Origin: Aminobacter niigataensis
Lineage (GTDB): Bacteria > Pseudomonadota > Alphaproteobacteria > Rhizobiales > Rhizobiaceae
Direction: 5' to 3'
Length of the DNA stretch: 64,000 nt
Assembly (NCBI RefSeq): GCF_014200015.1
Contig: NZ_JACHOT010000007.1
Span: 62,001 to 126,000, forward strand
Shown here one piece after another: positions 3,138-34,835 of this stretch; positions within the stretch are counted from its first letter, which is position 1, and every line of letters starts with the position of its first letter. The translations under genes were made by a program, and so were the position numbers. The notes under the pieces are model-generated. The model worked only from the letters and a program-made list of their open reading frames with translations, did not search any database and was not told the DNA's origin.

Positions 3138-3919
3138 TGCGGGCGGCGGCACTTCTTGCGGCCCTGTTGCTGGCTCCCGCACTTCCGGCGCAGGGCCAGG
3201 AAGCGGCGCATCCCGAAAGCATCCAGATCGGGCTATCGACCGACCGCGTCGCCATCACCGCCGACTTCTCGGGCGCAGACCTGACCATCTTCGGCGCGCT
3301 CGAGAACGCCGATCCGCTAATCAACCGCCAAGGCCGCTACGACGTCTATGTCGTGCTCGAAGGCCCGGCCCGGTCGGTCGTCGTGCGCCGCAAGGACCGC
3401 GTGCTCGGCATGTGGATCAACACCCGCTCCGAGACCTTCGTCAACGTGCCGGTGTCCTATTCGGTGGCGACCACGCGCCAGCCGCAGGACATCACCGATC
3501 CCAACAACTATCGCCAGCTGTCGCTGGGCGCCAACAACATCTACATGGAGCCCGAGGACAAGCGCGACAGCCCGCTGACCATCCAGGAGTTCACCGAGGC
3601 GCTGCGCGATCGCAAGCAGGCGATCGGTCTCTACTCGGACAATATCGGCGGCGTGCAGTTCCTGTCGCAGAGCCTGTTCCGCGCCACGCTGCACCTCGCC
3701 CCCAACGTGCCGGTCGGCACCCACAAGGCGCGCGCCTTCCTGTTCCGCAACGGCATCTTCATCAAGGAAACCTCGGCCCAGCTCGCCATCGTCAAGTCGG
3801 GCTTCGAGCAGACCATCTTCCGTTTCGCCACCGACCACGGCTTCGGCTACGGCCTCTTTGCCATCGGGCTCGCCATGCTCACCGGCTGGCTCGGACGGAT
3901 CATCTTCAGGAAGGACTGA
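3134..3919 (+). CDS. TIGR02186-family membrane-anchored protein of unknown function
   Basis: 261 residues with an N-terminal signal peptide (AALLAALLLAPALPAQGQ), an extracytoplasmic beta-rich region and one C-terminal membrane helix near residues 235-256 followed by the basic end RKD. This matches the TIGR02186 family of alphaproteobacterial proteins, which is repeatedly found next to TauE/SafE transporters, as here. The GTG start overlaps the permease stop. The exact role is unknown; as an inference it is a periplasmic accessory subunit of the adjacent permease. An ATG start three bases downstream is equally possible. Confidence 0.8.
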   Translation: MMRAAALLAALLLAPALPAQGQEAAHPESIQIGLSTDRVAITADFSGADLTIFGALENADPLINRQGRYDVYVVLEGPARSVVVRRKDRVLGMWINTRSETFVNVPVSYSVATTRQPQDITDPNNYRQLSLGANNIYMEPEDKRDSPLTIQEFTEALRDRKQAIGLYSDNIGGVQFLSQSLFRATLHLAPNVPVGTHKARAFLFRNGIFIKETSAQLAIVKSGFEQTIFRFATDHGFGYGLFAIGLAMLTGWLGRIIFRKD

Positions 3920-3950
3920 GGGGGCCGACGAACGCGTTTCGCAGCGTATC

Positions 3951-4136
3951 GCCCCCTCTGGCCTGCCGGCCATCTCCCCCTCAAGGGGGCGAGATCACGC
4001 CGTCATCGGCGCCTTCACAACCTGCAGAGCCACTCCCCAGGTCTATTACTGGTGCACATCTGACGTCGAGAGCCGCCGGCAACGCGACTAATCTCCCCCC
4101 TTGAGGGGGAGATGTCCGGCAGGACAGAGGGGGGCG
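3951..4136. repeat. Palindromic intergenic repeat, type A, copy 1
   Basis: About 186 bp bounded by near-perfect inverted arms of about 44 bp. The left arm runs CCCCTCTGGCCTGCCGGCCA then CTCCCCC-TCAA-GGGGG; the right arm is its complement (TTGAGGGGGAGATGTCCGGC then AGGACAGAGGGG). Each arm contains a small hairpin of its own. The same arms recur near 7.7 and 10.2 kb. It resembles the short intergenic mosaic elements of rhizobia (RIME-type) in style; membership was not tested. Confidence 0.85.
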
Positions 4137-4172
4137 TGAAGGAACTCGACGTCCTTTCCAGCCAGTCTCGCC

Positions 4173-4886
4173 TCATCCCGGCCTCAGTAACGACCCGGCA
4201 ATCGGATAAACGCGACTCGTGCCGATCATATACGCGGTGGGCGCACCATCGCGGAACATGCCCTTGTACGCCCGGTCGAGCACGTTGAGCGAACCGGTGA
4301 AGGCGCCGAAGGCGGGCATGATCAGCCGCGCGCCGTCGCTGGCAAAGCAGCGCCGGCGCACCGAGCGGCCACGCTGGACGATCCTGGCGCAAGGATGCAG
4401 ATGGCCCGCGATCTCGCCCTCGGCATGGCCCTTCGACGGCTCGTGGCGGAACACCAGCCCGCCGACCGCCAGTTCCTCGACCGTCTCGCCCGGCAAATCC
4501 GCCGGTGCATCGGGATCGTGGTTACCCGCGATCCAGAACCAGTTCCGCCCCGCCATCATCGCCATCAGGCTCACGCGGAACGGCTCGGGCAAACGCGCGG
4601 CGCCCTCGCCGTCATGGAAGCTGTCGCCGAGGCTGACGATGATGCGCGGCTGATAATCTTCGACCACCTCGGCAAGGCGCGACAGCGTCGCCGCCGTGTC
4701 GTAGGGCGGGATCAGACGGCCGCGGCGGGCATGGGACGAGCCCTTCTCCAGATGCAGGTCGGAGACGACGAGCAGATCGAGTTCGGGGAAGTGCAGCACC
4801 CCGCGCTGGTCACAGGCGGCGCGCATGCCGGCCACCGCGATCGCCTCGCAGCCGGCCCTGGTCAGTTCGCGCGCGGCTATGTTCAT
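4173..4886 (-). CDS. pdeM: Ligase-associated metallophosphoesterase (PdeM-like)
   Basis: 237-residue calcineurin-type phosphoesterase. The metal-binding motifs occur in order: SDLHLEKG (D-x-H), GDSFHDG (GD), AGNHDPDAP (GNHD) and GHLHPCA (GHxH). This pattern and the neighbourhood match the TIGR04123 ligase-associated phosphoesterase, a small nuclease/phosphodiesterase thought to act in DNA repair with the co-encoded helicase, exonuclease and ligase. Its ATG overlaps the helicase TGA (ATGA), so it is the second gene of a minus-strand pair and should be made in step with the helicase. Substrate and in vivo role are inferred from family and context. Confidence 0.9.
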   Translation of the reverse strand: MNIAARELTRAGCEAIAVAGMRAACDQRGVLHFPELDLLVVSDLHLEKGSSHARRGRLIPPYDTAATLSRLAEVVEDYQPRIIVSLGDSFHDGEGAARLPEPFRVSLMAMMAGRNWFWIAGNHDPDAPADLPGETVEELAVGGLVFRHEPSKGHAEGEIAGHLHPCARIVQRGRSVRRRCFASDGARLIMPAFGAFTGSLNVLDRAYKGMFRDGAPTAYMIGTSRVYPIAGSLLRPG

Positions 4887-7537
4887 GCGCTTCCCATCGC
4901 CTCTTCGATCAGGTCGGCTGCCTCCATCAGCAGCGTGTCGTTGGCCTCGCCATTGACCGGTTCCCGGCCAATTTCCAGCATGACGGGCACCGCCAGCGGG
5001 GAAATCTGGTCGAGCATCTTATGGACGATTCGGCCGCGGATGCGCGAGAGCATCTCCGCCAGTCTCCTGACATCGAGCAGCCCGCTGGCGGCATCCGCAC
5101 GCGTCGCCTTGAGCAGGATGTGATCGGGCTCATGGCTGCGCAAGACGTCGTAAATGAGGTCGGCCGAAACCGTCACCTGCCGGCCGTTCTTTTCCTGCCC
5201 GGGAAAGCGCCTCTCGATAAGGCCCGCTATGACCGCGCAATTGCGGAATGTGCGCTTGAGCAGCCAGCTGTCGGCGAGCCAGGCCTCAAGGTCATCGCCG
5301 AGCATGTCCTCGTCGAACAGTTCCGCCAGCGACGGCTTCTTCGCCTTGAACATGCGACCGAGGTCGCCCAGCGCCCAGACCGCCAGCGAATAATCTGTGG
5401 CGACGAAACCCAGCGGTCGCGCGCCCATGCGCTCCAGACGGCGCGTCAACAGCATGCCGAGCGTCTGGTGCGCCAGCCGGCCCTCGAAGGGGTAGGCGAC
5501 CATGTAGAAGCGTTCGCCGCGCGGAAAGGTCTCGACCAGCAGGTCCTCACGCCTGGGCAGGATCGACTTCATCTGCTGCATGCGCAGCCAGTCCGACACC
5601 TGGTCGGGCAGCGCCGTCCAGCGCGCGGGGTCGGCCAGCATGCCGCGCACCTGCTCGGCGAGATAGGTCGAGAGCGGGAACTTGCCGCCGGCATAAGACG
5701 GCACCAACACGTTGCCGCCACCACCCGTGGAGACGTAGCACTCGTTTTCGCGGATGCCCTCGAAGCGCAGCACCTTGCCGGCGAAGATGAACATGTCGCC
5801 GATCGACAACGTCTCGACGAAATACTCCTCGATCTTGCCGAGCACGGGCCCGCCGCGCAAGGCAAGCGACTGGGCGCTACCCGCCCCCGACTTGCCCTTG
5901 GCGCGGGTGTAGCGGACGTTGAGCATCGGCGCCTCGATGATGGTGCCGACGTTGAGTCTGTATTGCTGGGCGATGCGCGGATGCGACACCCGCCACTTGC
6001 CGTCCTTGGTCTTGCGGATGCGCGCATAGCGCTCGTAGCTGCGCAGCGCGTAGCCGCCGGTGGCGACGAAGTCGACGACGCGGTCGAAGCTTTCGCGGTC
6101 GAGCCCGGTATAGGGCGCGGCCCCCCTCACCTCGTCATAGAGTTCGTCCGCGTCGAAGGCTGCACCGCAGGCGCAACCCAGCACATGCTGGGCCAGCACG
6201 TCGAGCGCGCCCTCGATCAGCGGCGGGGTGTCCTGCGCGCCGAGATAGTTGGCCTCCAGTGCTGCCCGGCACTCCAGCACCTCGAAGCGGTTGGCCGGCA
6301 CCAGGATCGCCCGGCTCGGCTCGTCCATCCGGTGGTTGGCGCGGCCGATGCGCTGGGCCAGCCGGCTCGCGCCCTTGGGCGCGCCGACATGGATGACGAG
6401 ATCGACATCGCCCCAGTCGATGCCGAGGTCGAGCGTCGAGGTGGCGACGACGGCGCTCAGCACGTTGTCGGCCATCGCCTTCTCGACCTTGCGGCGCTGA
6501 CCGACATCGAGCGAGCCGTGATGTAGTGCGATCGGCAAATTGTCGTCGTTGACCCGCCACAGCTCCTGGAACAGCAGCTCCGCCTGGCTGCGGGTGTTGA
6601 CGAAGAGCAGCGTCGTCCTGTGCTTGCGGATCGCTTCATAGACATCTGGAATGGCATAGCGCGCCGAATGCCCCGACCACGGCACGTGTTCCTCGGAATC
6701 GAGGATCGATATCTCGGGCTTGGCGCCGCCCGACACCGTGATCAGCTCAGCCATGTTGTTTGTACCCTCCCCCTTGTGGGGAGGGTCGACGCGCAGCGTC
6801 GGAGTGGGGGTAGAGGCGAGACCGTCACCCCCACCCCGCCCTTCGGGCGACCCTCCCCACAAGGGGGAGGGTGAAGAGCCCTGCCTCACCAACCAGCGGC
6901 GCAGCTCGTCCGGTTCGGCCACCGTCGCTGACAGGCCGATCGCCTGAAGGTCGGGCACGAAGGCACGCAGCCGTGCCAGCCCGAGCGACAGAAGGTGGCC
7001 GCGCTTGGAGGTCACCAGCGAGTGCAGCTCGTCGAGCACGATGTAGCGCAGGTCGGAAAAGAAGCGCTCGGCATCTGGCGAGGCGATCAGCAGCGCCAGT
7101 TGCTCGGGCGTGGTCAGCAATATGTCGGGCGGCGACAGCTTCTGGCGGGTGCGCTTATGCTGCGGCGTGTCGCCGGTGCGCGTCTCCATCGAAATCGGCA
7201 GGCTCATTTCATCGACCGGCTTGCCGAGATTGCGCTCGATGTCGACGGCCAGCGCCTTGAGCGGCGAGATGTAGAGCGTGTGCACGCCGCGATGGGCCGC
7301 GCCCGGCCGCTTCTTCGGCCTGATGGCGAGATCGGTCAGCGCCGGCAGGAAACCGGCCAGCGTCTTGCCGGCACCGGTCGGAGCGATCAGCAGCACCGAG
7401 TTTCCCTGCTGGGCCGCGGCCAGCAAATCGAGCTGATGGGCACGAGGCGACCAGCCGCGTTCGGCGAACCATCGCACGAATGGTTCCGGCAACATGGCGG
7501 CAGTCGAATTCGGCTCCAGTCGCGCTTGGCTCGTCAC
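4883..7537 (-). CDS. Ligase-associated DEXH-box helicase (Lhr-like), carrying an in-frame palindromic insertion
   Basis: 884-residue superfamily 2 helicase. Walker A is APTGAGKTLAGF, the DEAH-type box is LDELHS, motif III is LSATVAE, motifs V/VI are STLDLGIDWGD and QRIGRANHRMDEPSRA, and the long C-terminal half is the Lhr/DEAD-associated region. It belongs with the TIGR04121 ligase-associated helicases, predicted to remodel DNA during repair. It starts the operon with the phosphoesterase. It is somewhat long for the family because residues about 222-258 (motifs SPSPLWGGSPEGRGGG and PPHKGEG) are encoded by a 109-bp palindromic repeat inserted in frame between the SAT motif domain and the second RecA lobe. 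The gene has no stop there and appears functional. Confidence 0.92.
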   Translation of the reverse strand: MTSQARLEPNSTAAMLPEPFVRWFAERGWSPRAHQLDLLAAAQQGNSVLLIAPTGAGKTLAGFLPALTDLAIRPKKRPGAAHRGVHTLYISPLKALAVDIERNLGKPVDEMSLPISMETRTGDTPQHKRTRQKLSPPDILLTTPEQLALLIASPDAERFFSDLRYIVLDELHSLVTSKRGHLLSLGLARLRAFVPDLQAIGLSATVAEPDELRRWLVRQGSSPSPLWGGSPEGRGGGDGLASTPTPTLRVDPPHKGEGTNNMAELITVSGGAKPEISILDSEEHVPWSGHSARYAIPDVYEAIRKHRTTLLFVNTRSQAELLFQELWRVNDDNLPIALHHGSLDVGQRRKVEKAMADNVLSAVVATSTLDLGIDWGDVDLVIHVGAPKGASRLAQRIGRANHRMDEPSRAILVPANRFEVLECRAALEANYLGAQDTPPLIEGALDVLAQHVLGCACGAAFDADELYDEVRGAAPYTGLDRESFDRVVDFVATGGYALRSYERYARIRKTKDGKWRVSHPRIAQQYRLNVGTIIEAPMLNVRYTRAKGKSGAGSAQSLALRGGPVLGKIEEYFVETLSIGDMFIFAGKVLRFEGIRENECYVSTGGGGNVLVPSYAGGKFPLSTYLAEQVRGMLADPARWTALPDQVSDWLRMQQMKSILPRREDLLVETFPRGERFYMVAYPFEGRLAHQTLGMLLTRRLERMGARPLGFVATDYSLAVWALGDLGRMFKAKKPSLAELFDEDMLGDDLEAWLADSWLLKRTFRNCAVIAGLIERRFPGQEKNGRQVTVSADLIYDVLRSHEPDHILLKATRADAASGLLDVRRLAEMLSRIRGRIVHKMLDQISPLAVPVMLEIGREPVNGEANDTLLMEAADLIEEAMGSA
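6764..6872. repeat. Palindromic repeat, type B, inserted inside the helicase gene
   Basis: 109 bp with perfect 23-bp terminal inverted repeats (positions 6764-6786 and 6850-6872). The left arm begins accctcccccttgtggggag, and each arm also folds on itself around ttgtgg/ccacaa. A second inner pair (gtgggggt / acccccac) nests inside. It lies within helicase codons 222-258 and is open in the helicase frame. Confidence 0.9.
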
Positions 7538-7643
7538 GCCCCAGACCTAGCGCGGGCGCGTTGGAACGCCAAGTGGAATCTGGAACAAAAAGGGATCAGG
7601 CGTCGCATGCACCAACCAGCTTGAAATGCCTCATTCCTTCGCG

Positions 7644-7821
7644 CCCCCCTCTGGCCTGCCGGCCATCTCCCCCTCAAGGGAGGAGATCAGGCCTTCATCG
7701 CCGCCGCAGCCAGTCGCCAACGTAGCTGTTTGCGCCTTGCAACCTCTCAGGAGATGGGCACTGCCGGCGACGAGACTGATCTCCCCCTTGCGGGGGAGAT
7801 GGCCGGCAGGCCAGAGGGGGG
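7644..7821. repeat. Palindromic intergenic repeat, type A, copy 2
   Basis: About 178 bp with arms ccccctctggcctgccggcc ... and ...ggccggcaggccagaggggg, inner hairpins CTCCCCC-TCAA-GGGAGG and CTCCCCC-TTGC-GGGGGAG. Arms match copy 1 apart from a few bases; the core differs. It fills most of the roughly 360-bp gap between the helicase start and the small coiled-coil ORF, so it sits in what should be the helicase promoter region. Confidence 0.85.
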
Positions 7822-7901
7822 TGGGAAGGATCGCGACGCAACAGACTTGCATCCCAAGCACTGCGGTATCAGATGGACAGCCCAAACTGAGAGCCGCCCG
7901 A

Positions 7902-8069
7902 ATGATCGACACAGCCTCCCACGAAGCCCGCATCGCCAAACTCGAAAAGCTCGTCCACGAGCTTCAGGCGCAACTGGAGATCGTGCAGAAGCAGGTGGGC
8001 ATCACGGCCAAGCCGGCCGAAAAGCCGCTACGCTCGCGCGGCATGCTCGGCAGCCCGAAGGGGCGCTAG
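7902..8069 (+). CDS. Small coiled-coil hypothetical protein
   Basis: 55 residues. The first 35 form an amphipathic heptad-like helix (EARIAKLEKLVHELQAQLEI), followed by a basic tail ending SPKGR. The organisation resembles SlyX-like or other short helical proteins, but I do not recognise a family. The stop overlaps the stop of the convergent methyltransferase gene by 3 bases. There is no strong ribosome site directly upstream. It could be real on the strength of its coiled-coil character and clean fit between genes. Confidence 0.5.
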   Translation: MIDTASHEARIAKLEKLVHELQAQLEIVQKQVGITAKPAEKPLRSRGMLGSPKGR

Positions 8070-8977
8070 GCCGCCCACTCCGTCACCACGATCAGGCCCT
8101 CGACCGGCTCGCGGCGGTCCTGGCGGATCACGGCGCGCTCCAGCGAAACCAGCTTCAGGCCGGCAGCGGCGATCAGCCCGTGCACATAGGCTTCGGAATG
8201 GGCGTAGCGGCGCGAGTCCTGAAGCTCGAACGGCTCGACGCCCGAAAAGAGCTCGACCGAAAAGGCAAAGATGCCGCCCGGCGCCAGCATCTTCATGACG
8301 CTTGAAAACACTCTATCGAGCGCACCGAGATACATGAATACGTCAGCGGCGGTGACCAGGTCTGCCGCCTCGCCCGCAAATTCCGGTTCCTGCAGGTCGG
8401 CCTTGATCAGCTGGTCGTAAACGCCCTTGTCGCGCGCCTTGCGCAGCATTTCGGCCGAGATGTCGTAGCCATCGAGGCGCTTCGCCACCGGCCGCAGCTT
8501 GACGCCCATCAGCCCGGTGCCACAGCCGAGATCGACCGCATGCGCAAACGCGTTGCGCCCGGTCGCACCGATGGCCGCCGTCAGCAGTTCCGGCACGCGG
8601 TAGTGCAGCGTCTCGACCAGGGCGTGATCGAACTTGTCGGCATACTGGTCGAACAGCATTTCGACGAAAGCGCTGGGCGGGCTGTCGGCAGCGGGAGCCG
8701 CACCGACCAGTTGCAGCTTCAGCGCCGCGCCCGGCCTATCAGCCGGCTCGAGCTTCAGCGACATGCGCCAGGCCTCGGCCGCGGCTTCCATCTGCCCAGC
8801 AGCCTCGTGCATTTCGCCCGCGCGGAACCAGCCCATCGCCCAGTTCGGCGCCAGTTCGAGCGCGCCGAGCATCAGTTCGGCGGCAGCAGCGTGGTCGCCC
8901 GAGGCGAACAGCATTTCGGCATAGTCCGCCCGCCGGTCGGCAAGCAGGTCGTTGGAAGAGAGCTGCAACGGCGTCAA
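8066..8977 (-). CDS. TPR-containing class I SAM-dependent methyltransferase
   Basis: 303 residues. The N-terminal third has TPR-like helices (residues about 15-75, for example GDHAAAAELMLGALELAPNW). The methyltransferase domain follows, with SAM motif I AVDLGCGTGLMG near residue 146, the acidic motif LDGYDIS and a VTAADVFMYLG motif IV. The linker FDQYADKFDHALVETLHYRV is characteristic of a TPR-methyltransferase family common in alphaproteobacteria whose substrate is unknown. It lies between the two arms of the ligase-associated repair cluster. Whether it takes part in repair or is only a passenger cannot be told from the window. Confidence 0.82.
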   Translation of the reverse strand: MTPLQLSSNDLLADRRADYAEMLFASGDHAAAAELMLGALELAPNWAMGWFRAGEMHEAAGQMEAAAEAWRMSLKLEPADRPGAALKLQLVGAAPAADSPPSAFVEMLFDQYADKFDHALVETLHYRVPELLTAAIGATGRNAFAHAVDLGCGTGLMGVKLRPVAKRLDGYDISAEMLRKARDKGVYDQLIKADLQEPEFAGEAADLVTAADVFMYLGALDRVFSSVMKMLAPGGIFAFSVELFSGVEPFELQDSRRYAHSEAYVHGLIAAAGLKLVSLERAVIRQDRREPVEGLIVVTEWAA

Positions 8978-9061
8978 GCGCGGTATCCAGAATGAGGAGA
9001 GTGGCGCGCATTACTGCCAAAGCGGCCTTCCACGCAAGCGGCAAATGCCTATCTTGCAAAG

Positions 9062-10072
9062 ATGCGTGCCCGCGACCTGCTCCATCCGCGCCCCGAAGGG
9101 CTCTATTGCCCGCCCGGCGATTTCTACATCGACCCCGTGCGCCCGGTCGAGCGCGCGCTCATCACCCACGGCCATTCCGACCATGCCCGGCCCGGCCATG
9201 CCAAGGTGCTGGCAACGCGCGAGACGCTCGACATCATGGCGATCCGCTGCGGACCGGGCTTTGCCGGCAGCACCCAGGCGATGGCGCTGGGCGACAAGAT
9301 CAAAGTCGGCGATGTCACCGTGTCGTTCCACCCTGCCGGCCATGTGCTGGGCTCGGCCCAGATATCGGTCCAGCACAACGGCCTGCGCATCGTCGCCTCG
9401 GGCGACTACAAGCGCGCCAGCGACCCGACCTGTGCCGCCTTCGAGGTGGTGGCTTGCGATGTGTTCATATCAGAGGCCACATTCGCGCTGCCGGTGTTCC
9501 GCCATCCCGATGCCGCACACGAGATCGGCAAGCTGCTGAAGTCGGTGCAGCAGTTTCCCGAGCGCGCGCATCTCGTCGGCGCCTATGCGCTGGGAAAGGC
9601 GCAGCGCGTCATGCGCCTGTTGCGCGACCAGGGCTACGACAAGCCGATCTACATCCACGGCGCCATCGCCAGGCTCAGCGAATATTACCAGCACCAGGGC
9701 GTCGACCTTGGCGAGCTGCAGCCCGCGACCGTCGAGGACGGCGACAAAAGCGACTTTGCCGGCGCCATCGTCATTGCGCCGTCGTCGGCCTTCGCCGACC
9801 GCTGGGCACGGCGCTTTCCCGATCCGCTCGCCTGCTTCGCCTCCGGCTGGATGCGCATCCGCCAGCGTGCCAAGCAGGGCGGCGTCGAACTGCCGCTGAT
9901 CATCTCCGACCATTCCGACTGGATTGAGCTGACCGACACGATCAAGGAAACCGGCGCCGGCGAGGTCTGGGTCACCCACGGCCGCGAGGAAGCGCTGGTG
10001 CGCTGGTGCGAGCTCAACGGGATTTCCGCGCGCCCGCTGCATCTCGTCGGCTACGAGGATGAGGGAGATTGA
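9062..10072 (+). CDS. Ligase-associated DNA exonuclease (metallo-beta-lactamase/beta-CASP fold)
   Basis: 336 residues. The MBL signature THGHSDHARPGH (HxHxDH) is near residue 40, followed by HPAGHVLGSAQI and SGDYKRASDPT with the metal-bridging Asp, then beta-CASP elements and the C-terminal ISDHSDW and WVTHGREE motifs. This is the TIGR04122 type: a predicted 3'/5' nuclease of the ligase-associated repair set, related to the CPSF/Artemis/SNM1 superfamily. It is the first gene of the plus-strand arm, with the ligase 253 bp downstream, separated by a palindromic repeat. Start ATG 9062 keeps the conserved N-terminus LHPRPEGLYCPPGDFYIDP. Confidence 0.92.
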   Translation: MRARDLLHPRPEGLYCPPGDFYIDPVRPVERALITHGHSDHARPGHAKVLATRETLDIMAIRCGPGFAGSTQAMALGDKIKVGDVTVSFHPAGHVLGSAQISVQHNGLRIVASGDYKRASDPTCAAFEVVACDVFISEATFALPVFRHPDAAHEIGKLLKSVQQFPERAHLVGAYALGKAQRVMRLLRDQGYDKPIYIHGAIARLSEYYQHQGVDLGELQPATVEDGDKSDFAGAIVIAPSSAFADRWARRFPDPLACFASGWMRIRQRAKQGGVELPLIISDHSDWIELTDTIKETGAGEVWVTHGREEALVRWCELNGISARPLHLVGYEDEGD

Positions 10073-10131
10073 GGATGCCCAGCCGCGCGATCTTTCACGC
10101 CTCCCGCTGGCCTGCAAGGCTTGCGGGACAG

Positions 10132-10288
10132 CGCCCCCCTCTGTCCTGCCGGACATCTCCCCCACAAGGGGGGAGATTGGCAGTTCCACCGCCGGTCCTC
10201 GTCCTGCAACAATGGCGATTGGCGAAAGCCGAGATGACGGCCAATCTCCCCCCTTGTGGGGGAGATGTCCGGCAGGACAGAGGGGGGC
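10132..10288. repeat. Palindromic intergenic repeat, type A, copy 3
   Basis: About 157 bp between the exonuclease and ligase genes. Outer arms ccccctctgtcctgccggac and gtccggcaggacagaggggg are inverted copies; the inner arms CTCCCCC-ACAA-GGGGG and CCCCC-TTGT-GGGGGAG are also inverted. The transcript of the two genes would contain a very stable long hairpin here. Confidence 0.87.
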
Positions 10289-10325
10289 AACGTAGAGCGC
10301 CCACCCAGCCCAGGTCGGCTGCCCC

Positions 10326-12047
10326 ATGAACCGCTTCGCCGAACTGCTCGACCGCCTGGTGCTGACGCCGTCGCGCAACGGCAAGCTCAAGCTCATCACC
10401 GACCATTTCCGCGCGGTCGAGGATCCCGACCGCGGGCTGGCGCTCGCCGCACTCACCGGCGATCTCGACATCGCCTCGGTCAAGCCAGCGATGCTGCGAC
10501 AGCTGGTTTCCGAGCGCATGGATCCCGTGCTGTTCGGCTATTCCTATGACTATGTCGGCGACCTCGCCGAAACAGTCTCGCTGGTCTGGCCAGAGCCGAG
10601 CCGCAACGCATCGCCTGTGACACCCCCACCCCTTACCCCTCCCCACAAGGGGGAGGGGAACGTCGACGCCTCAGAATCCCCCTCCCCCTTGTGGGGAGGG
10701 GTAAGGGGTGGGGGTAGCCAGGAGCACGACCCCAAACCCAAGCCGCAAACATTGGCCGATGTCGTCGCCGCCCTCCAATCGGCCAGCCGCTCCGACGGGC
10801 CGGCCGTGCTTGCCCGCCTGCTCGACCAGGCGGAAACATCCGCCCGCTTCGCCATCATCAAGCTGGTCACCGGCGGATTGCGCATCGGCGTCTCGGCACG
10901 GCTTGCCAAGCAGGCGCTGGCCGACCTTGGCCCCGTCGACGTCGCCGAGATCGAGGAGTTGTGGCACGGGCTGACACCGCCCTATGCCGAACTGTTCGCC
11001 TGGCTGGAAGGCAAGGCACCGAAGCCGGAACAGGCTGCCAAGGCGCCATTCCGCCCGGTGATGCTGTCCAACCCGCTCAGTGACGGCGATCTCGAAAAGC
11101 TCGCGCCGGCCGACTACGCCGCCGAGTGGAAATGGGATGGCATCCGCGTCCAGGCGGTTTCGGAGGGCGGCATCCGCCGGCTCTATTCGCGCACCGGCGA
11201 CGACGTCTCCGGCGCCTTCCCCGACGTGGTCGCGTCGATGGATTTCGATGCGGCACTCGACGGCGAATTGCTGGTCGGCGTGCCCCGCGAGGCGACCGGC
11301 ACCTTCTCCGACCTGCAGCAGCGGCTCAACCGCAAGACCGTCTCGGCCAAGATGCAGGACCGCTACCCTGCTTTCGTGCGCTGCTACGATCTGCTCCAGC
11401 TGAACGGCGAAGACCTGCGCGGTCTCGCCTTCACCGAGCGCCGCGCGCGGCTCGAAACCTTCATCGCCACGCTGGACCCCGACCGCTTCGACCTGTCGCC
11501 GATCATCGCCTTCGAAAGCTGGCAGCAGCTCGAAGGCATGCGCAGCGCACCGCCGCACCCGATCATCGAGGGCGTGATGCTGAAACGCCTGGATTCGGCC
11601 TACCTCGCCGGCCGCCCCAAGGGTCCGTGGTTCAAGTGGAAGCGCGATCCGCACACGGTCGACGCCGTGTTGATGTATGCCCAGCGCGGCCACGGCAAGC
11701 GCTCGAGCTTCTACTCCGACTATACATTCGGCGTCTGGTCGGGGGCGGAAGGCCAGGAGGAACTGGTGCCAGTGGGCAAGGCCTATTTCGGCTTCACCGA
11801 CGAGGAACTCAGGCAGATCGACAAGTTCGTCCGCGACAACACCATCGAGCGCTTCGGCCCGGTGCGCTCGGTGCGCGCCGACAAGTCGAACGGGCTGGTG
11901 CTGGAAGTCGCCTTCGAGGGGCTCAACCGCTCGACGCGCCACAAGTCGGGCGTTGCCATGCGTTTTCCCAGGATCTCGCGCCTGCGCTGGGACAAGCCGC
12001 CGGCGGAAGCCGACCGCATCGAAACGCTGCAGGCGCTGCTCGACTGA
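10326..12047 (+). CDS. ATP-dependent DNA ligase (ligase-associated type) with in-frame palindromic insertion
   Basis: 573 residues. The adenylation motif is EWKWDGIRVQ with nucleotidyl-lysine Lys269 (KxDG type), motif III is LDGELLVG, motifs IV/V are EGVMLKRLDS and GPWFKWKRDP, and the C-terminal OB domain ends with SGVAMRFPRISRLRWDK. This is the stand-alone bacterial ATP-dependent ligase of the TIGR04120 type that defines the repair neighbourhood. Residues about 99-130, in the N-terminal DNA-binding domain, derive from a 94-bp palindromic repeat (motifs PPLTPPHKGEG and SPSPLWGGVRGGG) read in frame. The catalytic core is complete, so the enzyme should be active if the insertion is tolerated. 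Confidence 0.93.
   Translation: MNRFAELLDRLVLTPSRNGKLKLITDHFRAVEDPDRGLALAALTGDLDIASVKPAMLRQLVSERMDPVLFGYSYDYVGDLAETVSLVWPEPSRNASPVTPPPLTPPHKGEGNVDASESPSPLWGGVRGGGSQEHDPKPKPQTLADVVAALQSASRSDGPAVLARLLDQAETSARFAIIKLVTGGLRIGVSARLAKQALADLGPVDVAEIEELWHGLTPPYAELFAWLEGKAPKPEQAAKAPFRPVMLSNPLSDGDLEKLAPADYAAEWKWDGIRVQAVSEGGIRRLYSRTGDDVSGAFPDVVASMDFDAALDGELLVGVPREATGTFSDLQQRLNRKTVSAKMQDRYPAFVRCYDLLQLNGEDLRGLAFTERRARLETFIATLDPDRFDLSPIIAFESWQQLEGMRSAPPHPIIEGVMLKRLDSAYLAGRPKGPWFKWKRDPHTVDAVLMYAQRGHGKRSSFYSDYTFGVWSGAEGQEELVPVGKAYFGFTDEELRQIDKFVRDNTIERFGPVRSVRADKSNGLVLEVAFEGLNRSTRHKSGVAMRFPRISRLRWDKPPAEADRIETLQALLD
10622..10715. repeat. Palindromic repeat, type B, inserted inside the ligase gene
   Basis: 94 bp made of two perfect 37-bp inverted arms (10622-10658 and 10679-10715) around a 20-nt spacer. 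The arms begin acccccaccccttacccctc and contain the same cccacaaggggg core as the helicase copy. It is translated in the ligase frame. Confidence 0.92.
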
Positions 12048-24228: not shown

Positions 24229-24433
24229 ACCCTCCCCCTTGTGGGGAGGGTGGCCCGTAGGGCCGGGTGTGGGTTAGCGGAGTGGAAGAATTACCCCCAC
24301 CCCCACCCCCACCCCTCAAGGAGGAGGGGAATTCTGATTCCGCCTGGTCGGCCAAGACAAACACCCACCCAATTGAAAAGCGCGCAACCGCCAGTCCCCC
24401 TCCCCCTTGTGGGGAGGGGTCAGGGGTGGGGGT
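24229..24433. repeat. Composite of type B palindromic repeats
   Basis: Fills most of the 280-bp gap between the binding-protein and permease genes. The left end is a copy of the helicase-type arm (24229-24251, accctcccccttgtggggag...). In the middle is a CCCCCA tandem run. The right end (24395-24433) matches the ligase-type arm with one base changed (gtcaggggtgggggt). It looks like two elements or one rearranged element. Confidence 0.82.
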
Positions 24434-34560: not shown

Positions 34561-34835
34561 ACTTTCACGGCATGGATCCCCGGGTCTCCGCACTCGCTTC
34601 GCTCCTGCTCCGCCCGTGGATGACGAAGGCATCTACGCCCTAGGCAAATCGCGGACGTCGACGATTGGCACCAAACACGATCCTTTGAACATGCCTTTAT
34701 CTTTGCGGGCGCATGCCGGCATTTCCTGCCAAATGCCATCTTGGAGATTAGCCGGAAGCCTACATGCCTTCGTCATCCTCGGGCGGAGCAGGAGCGCAGC
34801 GACGTGCGGAGACCCGGGGATCCATGCCGTGAAGT
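34561..34835. repeat. Foldback element with 71-bp inverted repeats
   Basis: Arms 34561-34631 and 34765-34835 are near-perfect inverted copies. They read inward cacggcatggatccccgggt ... gctccgcccg ... gatgacgaaggca, around a centre of about 133 bp that shows no gene. Likely a non-autonomous dispersed element. Confidence 0.85.

Follow-up and report, generated by a model that had tools for sequence, protein, structure and literature searches.

Palindromic repeats lie in frame at two recurrent sites of a DNA ligase and its partner helicase in Aminobacter and other lineages

Palindromic repeats have been described in several systems, summarised here from the portions of the cited sources that were covered. 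In Rickettsia, palindromic elements of ~100-150 bp (RPEs) lie in frame in unrelated, conserved working proteins (Ogata et al. 2000, as described in PMC2229807, PMC3733652 and PMC6649704); a review (PMC2229807) covers the in-frame fusion of RPEs and of other small mobile repeats. Intragenic GTAG/CGTC REPs are short palindromic units, often inverted dimers, that lie in frame in many genes; many of them reside in genes for DNA replication or repair, among them one in a DNA ligase gene of O. terrae, and in two Xanthomonas species recB has been hit by different REPs at nearly the same position (Di Nocera et al. 2013, PMC3733652). CGTC REPs are common in alphaproteobacteria and come without a dedicated transposase (PMC3733652). 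REPINs are mobilised by RAYT transposases (PMC3116915). The CIRs of Caulobacter and Brucella are stem-loop elements of ~110 bp that are reported not to be intragenic and to have stops in all six frames (Chen and Shapiro 2003, as described in PMC2229807). Finally, working protein genes of Nematomorpha mitochondria contain long perfect inverted repeats, the arms of which are kept alike (PMC6649704). As far as we have searched, in-frame palindromic repeats outside Rickettsia are known and have been little followed up.

Here, we analysed 64,000 nucleotides of the Aminobacter niigataensis genome (the window). On its forward strand, positions 10326-12047 encode a 573-aa ATP-dependent DNA ligase of the cisplatin damage response family TIGR04120. 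The open frame is intact (TIGR04120 score 820.8 bits, cut-off 400) and reads through a palindrome in frame, with the translation TPPPLTPPHKGEGNVDASESPSPLWGGVRGGGS. The left arm (10622-10658) consists of the outward tail ACCCCCACCCCTTA and the hairpin CCCCTCCCCACAAGGGGGAGGGG and is translated to ..PPLTPPHKGEG; a 20-nt spacer (10659-10678) with GAATC at its 3' end follows, and the right arm (10679-10715), translated to PSPLWGGVRGG, is the exact reverse complement of the left one. Thus, the original prediction of a palindrome with perfect 37-bp arms around a 20-nt spacer, in frame within the ligase, is borne out by the repeat search, which found arms of 37 nt that are 100% complementary. Four of the six reading frames of the element are open, and its RNA has a very stable computed fold of about -97 kcal/mol. 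Aligned with homologues that have an empty site, the inserted segment spans approximately 10605-10724, i.e. 120 nt, with a 3-nt gap nearby that brings the net difference to +123 nt.

The partner gene on the reverse strand (4883-7537) encodes a ligase-associated DEXH helicase of 884 aa (profile match to TIGR04121). It also holds an in-frame palindrome (6764-6872, reverse strand), which lies between the DEAD and Helicase_C domains, has its hairpins outward and contains small inner hairpins. Its peptide, PSPLWGG...PPHKGEG, has the words of the ligase peptide in the opposite order, as had been noticed from the sequence. The ligase-associated exonuclease gene (9062-10072, forward strand; profile match to TIGR04122) has no copy inside. 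The repeat search found palindromes of a sister family between the exonuclease and ligase genes (10133-10288) and upstream (7635-7830) and downstream (3952-4133) of the helicase gene, and more copies of the ligase/helicase family at 24229-24433, where no long open frame runs across them. Elsewhere in the window, at 34564-34833, there is a long interrupted inverted repeat with perfect outer arms of 30 nt and inner arms of 57 nt at 84%, which is unlike the ligase hairpin family.

The repeat unit consists of a tail like ACCCCCACCC followed by the hairpin CCCTCCCCACAAGGGGGAGGG, and with up to two mismatches the tail lies upstream of the hairpin in 50 of 51 printed arms. The 23-nt hairpin core has 35 matches in its own genome (at most two mismatches) against none for a reversed control, and so the ligase palindrome is not a chance structure. 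A looser hairpin pattern gave 106 matches against three in the control, and 31 clusters were counted in the stretches fetched around matches. When one mismatch is allowed in the tail, a short link joins tail and hairpin in 23 arms and a longer link in 25. The 21 distinct longer links have a mean longest stem of 5.5 bp compared with 3.05 bp after shuffling (top shuffle mean 3.67). Because the sequence of these links changes while their pairing stays, they point to a structured nucleic acid as the spreading unit. The ligase palindrome has its tails outward and short links; in the helicase palindrome the hairpins point outward, and tail and main hairpin are separated by a small variable hairpin. 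The suggestion that the same palindrome had entered in an alternative arrangement is therefore roughly right, in that one kind of unit built both and the helicase holds a separate copy of the same family, but the details differ.

A match to the Y1/RAYT transposase (PF01797) was found in none of 10 Aminobacter genomes and, with the same search, in 5 of 14 control genomes, and such a transposase was therefore rejected as the mover in the genus. Carriage by phage was likewise set aside, there being no similar DNA among 50,697 phage records. Fourteen plasmid records contain similar repeats; the best place lies outside any listed gene in 10 of these and four are unannotated, the gene table being incomplete. 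Two Pannonibacter plasmids of ~350 kb (NZ_CP013069 and NZ_CP032313) have a high density of element-like places, 34 and 35, respectively. No Rfam family matched at its gathering score, and the sub-threshold matches, mostly to microRNAs, look like chance on GC-rich hairpins.

Within Aminobacter, 10 genomes were searched and the ligase was recovered in nine; the tenth (G007, 81% complete) had no match to the ligase proper. The segment is carried by G000, G001 and G003 and is missing from G002, G004, G005, G006, G008 and G009, as well as from Mesorhizobium. The coding sequence, stop codon excluded, measures 1719 nt in G000 and 1716 nt in G001 compared with 1596 nt in the six empty genomes, and the inserts (+123 and +120 nt) preserve the frame. 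These empty homologues establish the in-frame insertion: a repeated palindromic element has entered a predicted loop of a gene that stayed intact. The number of core matches per Aminobacter genome ranges from 4 to 80; the genome with 79 matches, G009, is one of those with an empty ligase. Hairpins of this sort can disrupt an assembly; that of the A. anthyllidis-like genome G003 is split inside the ligase palindrome, with both halves visible at the ends of contigs C9 and C12 (loci L091 and L099). The C12 end runs from the palindrome into unrelated sequence that finishes in a run of A.

The helicase copy is present in G000, G001, G003 and G009 and missing in G002, G004, G005, G006 and G008. Hence a single event linking both genes is not supported, the helicase copy being found in four genomes and the ligase copy in only three of those; as read from these sequences, the helicase copy is a separate and older insertion. 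By eye, the small inner hairpins of the G003 helicase palindrome (L177) stand in swapped order relative to G000, indicating that an element can be inverted where it sits or exchanged for another.

Altogether, 92 ligases were compared, i.e. 78 of 80 comparison loci (the incomplete L011 and L075 were left out) and 14 loci from further genomes. The linker measures 40-50 residues in 77 ligases, 61 in one and 68-141 in 14, and all 14 long linkers hold palindromes or hairpin units, some of them decayed, from several sequence families. Four Jiella species and Ahrensia share a CATCTCCCCC...GGGGGAGATG family, Kaistia and genome G139 have another palindrome family, and L050, a metagenome-assembled genome labelled Rhodobacteraceae, holds a relative of the Aminobacter unit. 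The G028 linker (L187) contains three hairpin units in a row, that of G126 contains CCCTCCCCCCTCTGCGGGGGAGGG, a hairpin that itself recurs at many places in the G126 genome, that of Prosthecomicrobium contains a single unit and that of G110 an apparent remnant. When the 80 loci were scanned automatically for inverted repeats of at least 16 nt, the inserts of L050, L054, L055 and L072 were picked up, and the others were judged by eye; inverted repeats at gene ends, between genes or with length differences that are not a multiple of three were left uncounted. The exact insertion point varies by several codons; the encoded peptide and the frame in which it is read also differ from lineage to lineage. 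On a maximum-likelihood tree, the long-linker trait needs at least six changes, five of them forced by well-supported branches, a quick search that merits moderate trust. Eight further insert-bearing ligases and two helicases (10 loci in nine genomes) are open frames that score far above the TIGR04120 and TIGR04121 cut-offs. In 12 insert-bearing genomes of other lineages, a general hairpin pattern has 20-225 matches compared with 2-9 for its reversal. Of three insert-free relatives, G108 has two such matches, but 115 and 146 occur in G074 and G141, which are related to G028; copy number is thus a poor predictor of inserts. Thus, other genera do not share the Aminobacter segment, but some, in other lineages of the Hyphomicrobiales, hold different palindromes there, and to that extent the term hotspot was apt.

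At the helicase site, the interdomain linker has 41-45 residues in 34 of 37 comparison loci, 59 in L037, 104 in L018 (Mesorhizobium sp. Root552) and 132 in L050, compared with 78 in the window. The L018 and L050 linkers hold palindromes, and that of L037 holds what may be a decayed insert, an apparent half arm from the sister family. Among 118 genomes with a helicase match in an order-wide sample, four are split at the site (G000, G072, G073 and G126) and a few others end near it at contig ends. The split helicases of G126 and G072 hold palindromes, so that helicase-site palindromes occur in five lineages (Aminobacter, Root552, L050, G126 and G072). The longer linker of the G073 helicase has no palindrome, and neither has a longer ligase linker in G107; other growth of these linkers therefore happens. 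A second helicase split (around residues 510-524, three genomes of one genus) showed no palindrome by eye. Both genes are hit in three lineages: Aminobacter, L050 and G126. In G126, the same repeat family lies in the ligase and the helicase ~690 kb apart on one contig, and closeness of the genes does not explain this double hit.

Several controls give a measure of frequency. In the order-wide sample of 150 genomes, 5 of 88 ligases have palindromic inserts (G000, G126, G028, G139 and the probable remnant in G110); the others were judged by continuous matches and four of them were also read. A class-wide sample has 62 ligase-bearing genomes with a split seen in G000 only, the match in G194 leaving the site uncovered. 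In the order-wide set of 150 genomes, the exonuclease gave matches in 87 without break or lengthening, except in G143 (split between contig ends) and G123 (a fragment). The NAD ligase LigA matched in 144 genomes; 13 loci, mostly those with split or long matches, were fetched, the 12 re-read by homology have no palindromic insert, and the remaining genes were judged by continuous matches. An inverted repeat in LigA of G126 (17-nt arms, far apart over conserved sequence) was taken as chance. In L212 (G104), the stop codon of LigA (NAD-dependent DNA ligase) is closely followed by a different type of palindrome, whose arms measure 33 nt. The control numbers are small, and the shared site, not the rate, is the strong point.

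The family is a multi-copy palindromic repeat found in several unrelated host genes, recognised in G000 and G001 from their open frames, their GC by codon position and Pfam matches. In-frame copies lie between the domains of XdhC, between the domains of an ADP-forming acyl-CoA ligase (in both G000 and G001) and between the lipoyl and E3-binding domains of an E2 acyltransferase. Two more lie in the N-terminal part of FtsY, before the SRP54_N and GTPase domains (L239, 1976-3835, G001). A 1317-aa open frame of hydantoinase A/B type (HyuAB; L163, 300-4250, on contig C4 of the genome under study) has two in-frame copies of two sub-families. XdhC was missed by the GC3 filter and retained on Pfam evidence; frames flagged by GC3 in L167, L174 (three, forward strand), L239 (forward) and L242 (reverse) were dropped as antisense or wrong-frame. 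The E2 hinge and the FtsY N-terminal region are flexible parts. Because the copies in XdhC, the acyl-CoA ligase, FtsY and E2 lie between domains or in an N-terminal part, they favor tolerance in flexible parts as the common factor; HyuAB fits less neatly, its copies lying inside or at the edge of Pfam domains and not in a plain interdomain linker. A special bias towards DNA repair is not claimed: of the seven host genes named in G000 and G001, two belong to repair, and these were the reason for choosing this window.

Based on these data, we suggest that the element is probably a REP-like, selfish or neutral repeat of two inverted hairpin units that persists in frame where a flexible loop permits. 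In this model, copies would spread as selfish or neutral DNA, probably via single-stranded hairpin intermediates and by some enzyme or replication process. Copies that break genes would be lost, while in-frame copies in flexible loops would survive. The ligase and the helicase would stand out because each offers one very permissive loop and both genes are accessory, and not because the repeat serves repair in any way. The recurrence at the two sites suggests that these loops tolerate such insertions, and the idea of tolerance in linker regions has good support.

An alternative is that the inserts are selected, either as a hairpin in gene or mRNA or as a proline/glycine-rich loop that tunes the ligase-helicase damage response, with lineages converging on it. 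The same two sites recur, both genes are hit in three lineages and the RNA fold is very stable, all of which would fit. Moreover, the arms are unusually conserved. Between G000 and G001, one of 74 arm positions differs compared with 9.4% in the rest of the gene (P 0.006), and between G000 and G003 none of 65 (P 0.0006); the ligase gene diverges by 9-11% among these species, and the 20-nt spacer shows four differences in the first pair and one in the second. The ligase arms are thus more conserved than expected of neutral DNA, which sits uneasily with the favored reading and could reflect selection or conversion acting on the hairpin. Conversion from arm to arm alone would not keep the arms alike between species, but they could be kept so by constraint acting on the hairpin, by a reduced rate of mutation or through exchange among copies. 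On the other hand, the inserts are rare (the 5 of 88 ligases, one a remnant) and no split was seen in the 61 further class-wide ligase genomes (the G194 match leaving the site uncovered), peptides and frames differ between lineages, close relatives do without, and unrelated metabolic genes carry the same repeats. We therefore regard selection for the inserts as improbable.

We give about the same low credence to a true target preference, in which a motif or structure at these loci attracts the element or its machinery, making the site a hotspot by mechanism and not by permissiveness. The window has a local excess of hairpins around the system: 8 of its 10 hairpins lie within 3900-10800 (6.9 kb), where 0.14 are expected, counting pairs that are not independent. 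Four of these eight are outside the ligase and helicase genes, and the cluster exceeds what two permissive loops explain. The comparison loci have 39 matches within 500 bp before the ligase start, many of them in related Mesorhizobium and not independent. However, different palindrome families occupy the same site, the exact point shifts by several codons, and both genes of G126 are hit though far apart. A target-site duplication, which the copies might have shared, is not evident at the ligase or the helicase site in the alignments, where the flanks have diverged.

It is conceivable, with a still smaller chance, that the ligase loop and the helicase linker are convergent docking sites at which palindromes are favored, lowering or retuning the repair that processes hairpins, so that copies there help palindromes to persist and multiply. 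If true, this would also explain the older report of many intragenic REPs in repair genes.

One would not readily expect a perfect 37-bp hairpin to be translated, and it might be supposed that the open frame is decaying or mis-called and its in-frame reading accidental. This is very hard to reconcile with inserts that keep the frame, with the ten further loci scoring far above their cut-offs as open frames, and with dN/dS ratios below 0.1 among the three insert-bearing Aminobacter ligases. These ratios (0.081-0.088, linker excluded; 0.057-0.115 in other pairs) indicate that the insert-bearing ligase is kept under purifying selection, like its empty homologues. An AlphaFold2 model of the ligase (55-row alignment, mean pLDDT 84.5) matches ATP-dependent DNA ligases of archaea and man. 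Its sole long stretch below 50 covers residues 94-134, a predicted coil in the N-terminal domain between helices 77-87 and 143-152. Residues 221-260 of the helicase form a low-confidence coil in a weak model (mean 65.6) that has other low stretches too. Because the gene is intact, in frame and under purifying selection, the palindrome is probably translated, as a predicted flexible loop of a working ligase. That the segment is ancestral and was lost elsewhere is the least credible reading, since the branches around the insert-bearing ones are occupied by empty versions and the inserted sequences differ from lineage to lineage, even if parsimony counts alone cannot separate gain from loss.

The locus is a natural replicate series, with one ligase loop, different repeats, several lineages and close relatives that are empty. 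It thus allows tests of how proteins take up selfish DNA and of why repair genes are found among the hosts. In the open literature, with subscription papers mostly beyond reach, we found no report of palindromic inserts in the TIGR04120 ligase or the TIGR04121 helicase.

Compared with the systems described above, in the portions of the sources covered, the Aminobacter repeat shares features with each. Like REPINs, it combines two inverted hairpin units around a variable spacer and is present in tens of copies, unevenly between relatives; unlike the REPIN-RAYT system, it comes without a Y1 transposase match in the 10 genomes. Like CIRs, it is alphaproteobacterial and forms stem-loops, and the GAATC of the ligase copy is a GANTC site; by description, CIRs differ from the Aminobacter copies, which are intragenic, with four of six frames open in the ligase element. 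In Nematomorpha, the arms encode conserved protein residues, whereas the Aminobacter arms form an added loop. RPEs, compared by description, have hosts in the order Rickettsiales; the Aminobacter arms are each a hairpin, in two arrangements of one unit. In contrast to GTAG/CGTC REPs, the Aminobacter units have no conserved tag (within 9 nt of a 17-nt core, CGTC stands in 7 and GTAG in 2 of 51 units), and the covered parts of PMC3733652 do not describe this family, the ligase/helicase pair or convergence across many lineages. Thus, the kind of element is already known from RPEs and intragenic REPs, and what we did not find in the literature searched is that such repeats converge on two sites within a single repair system.
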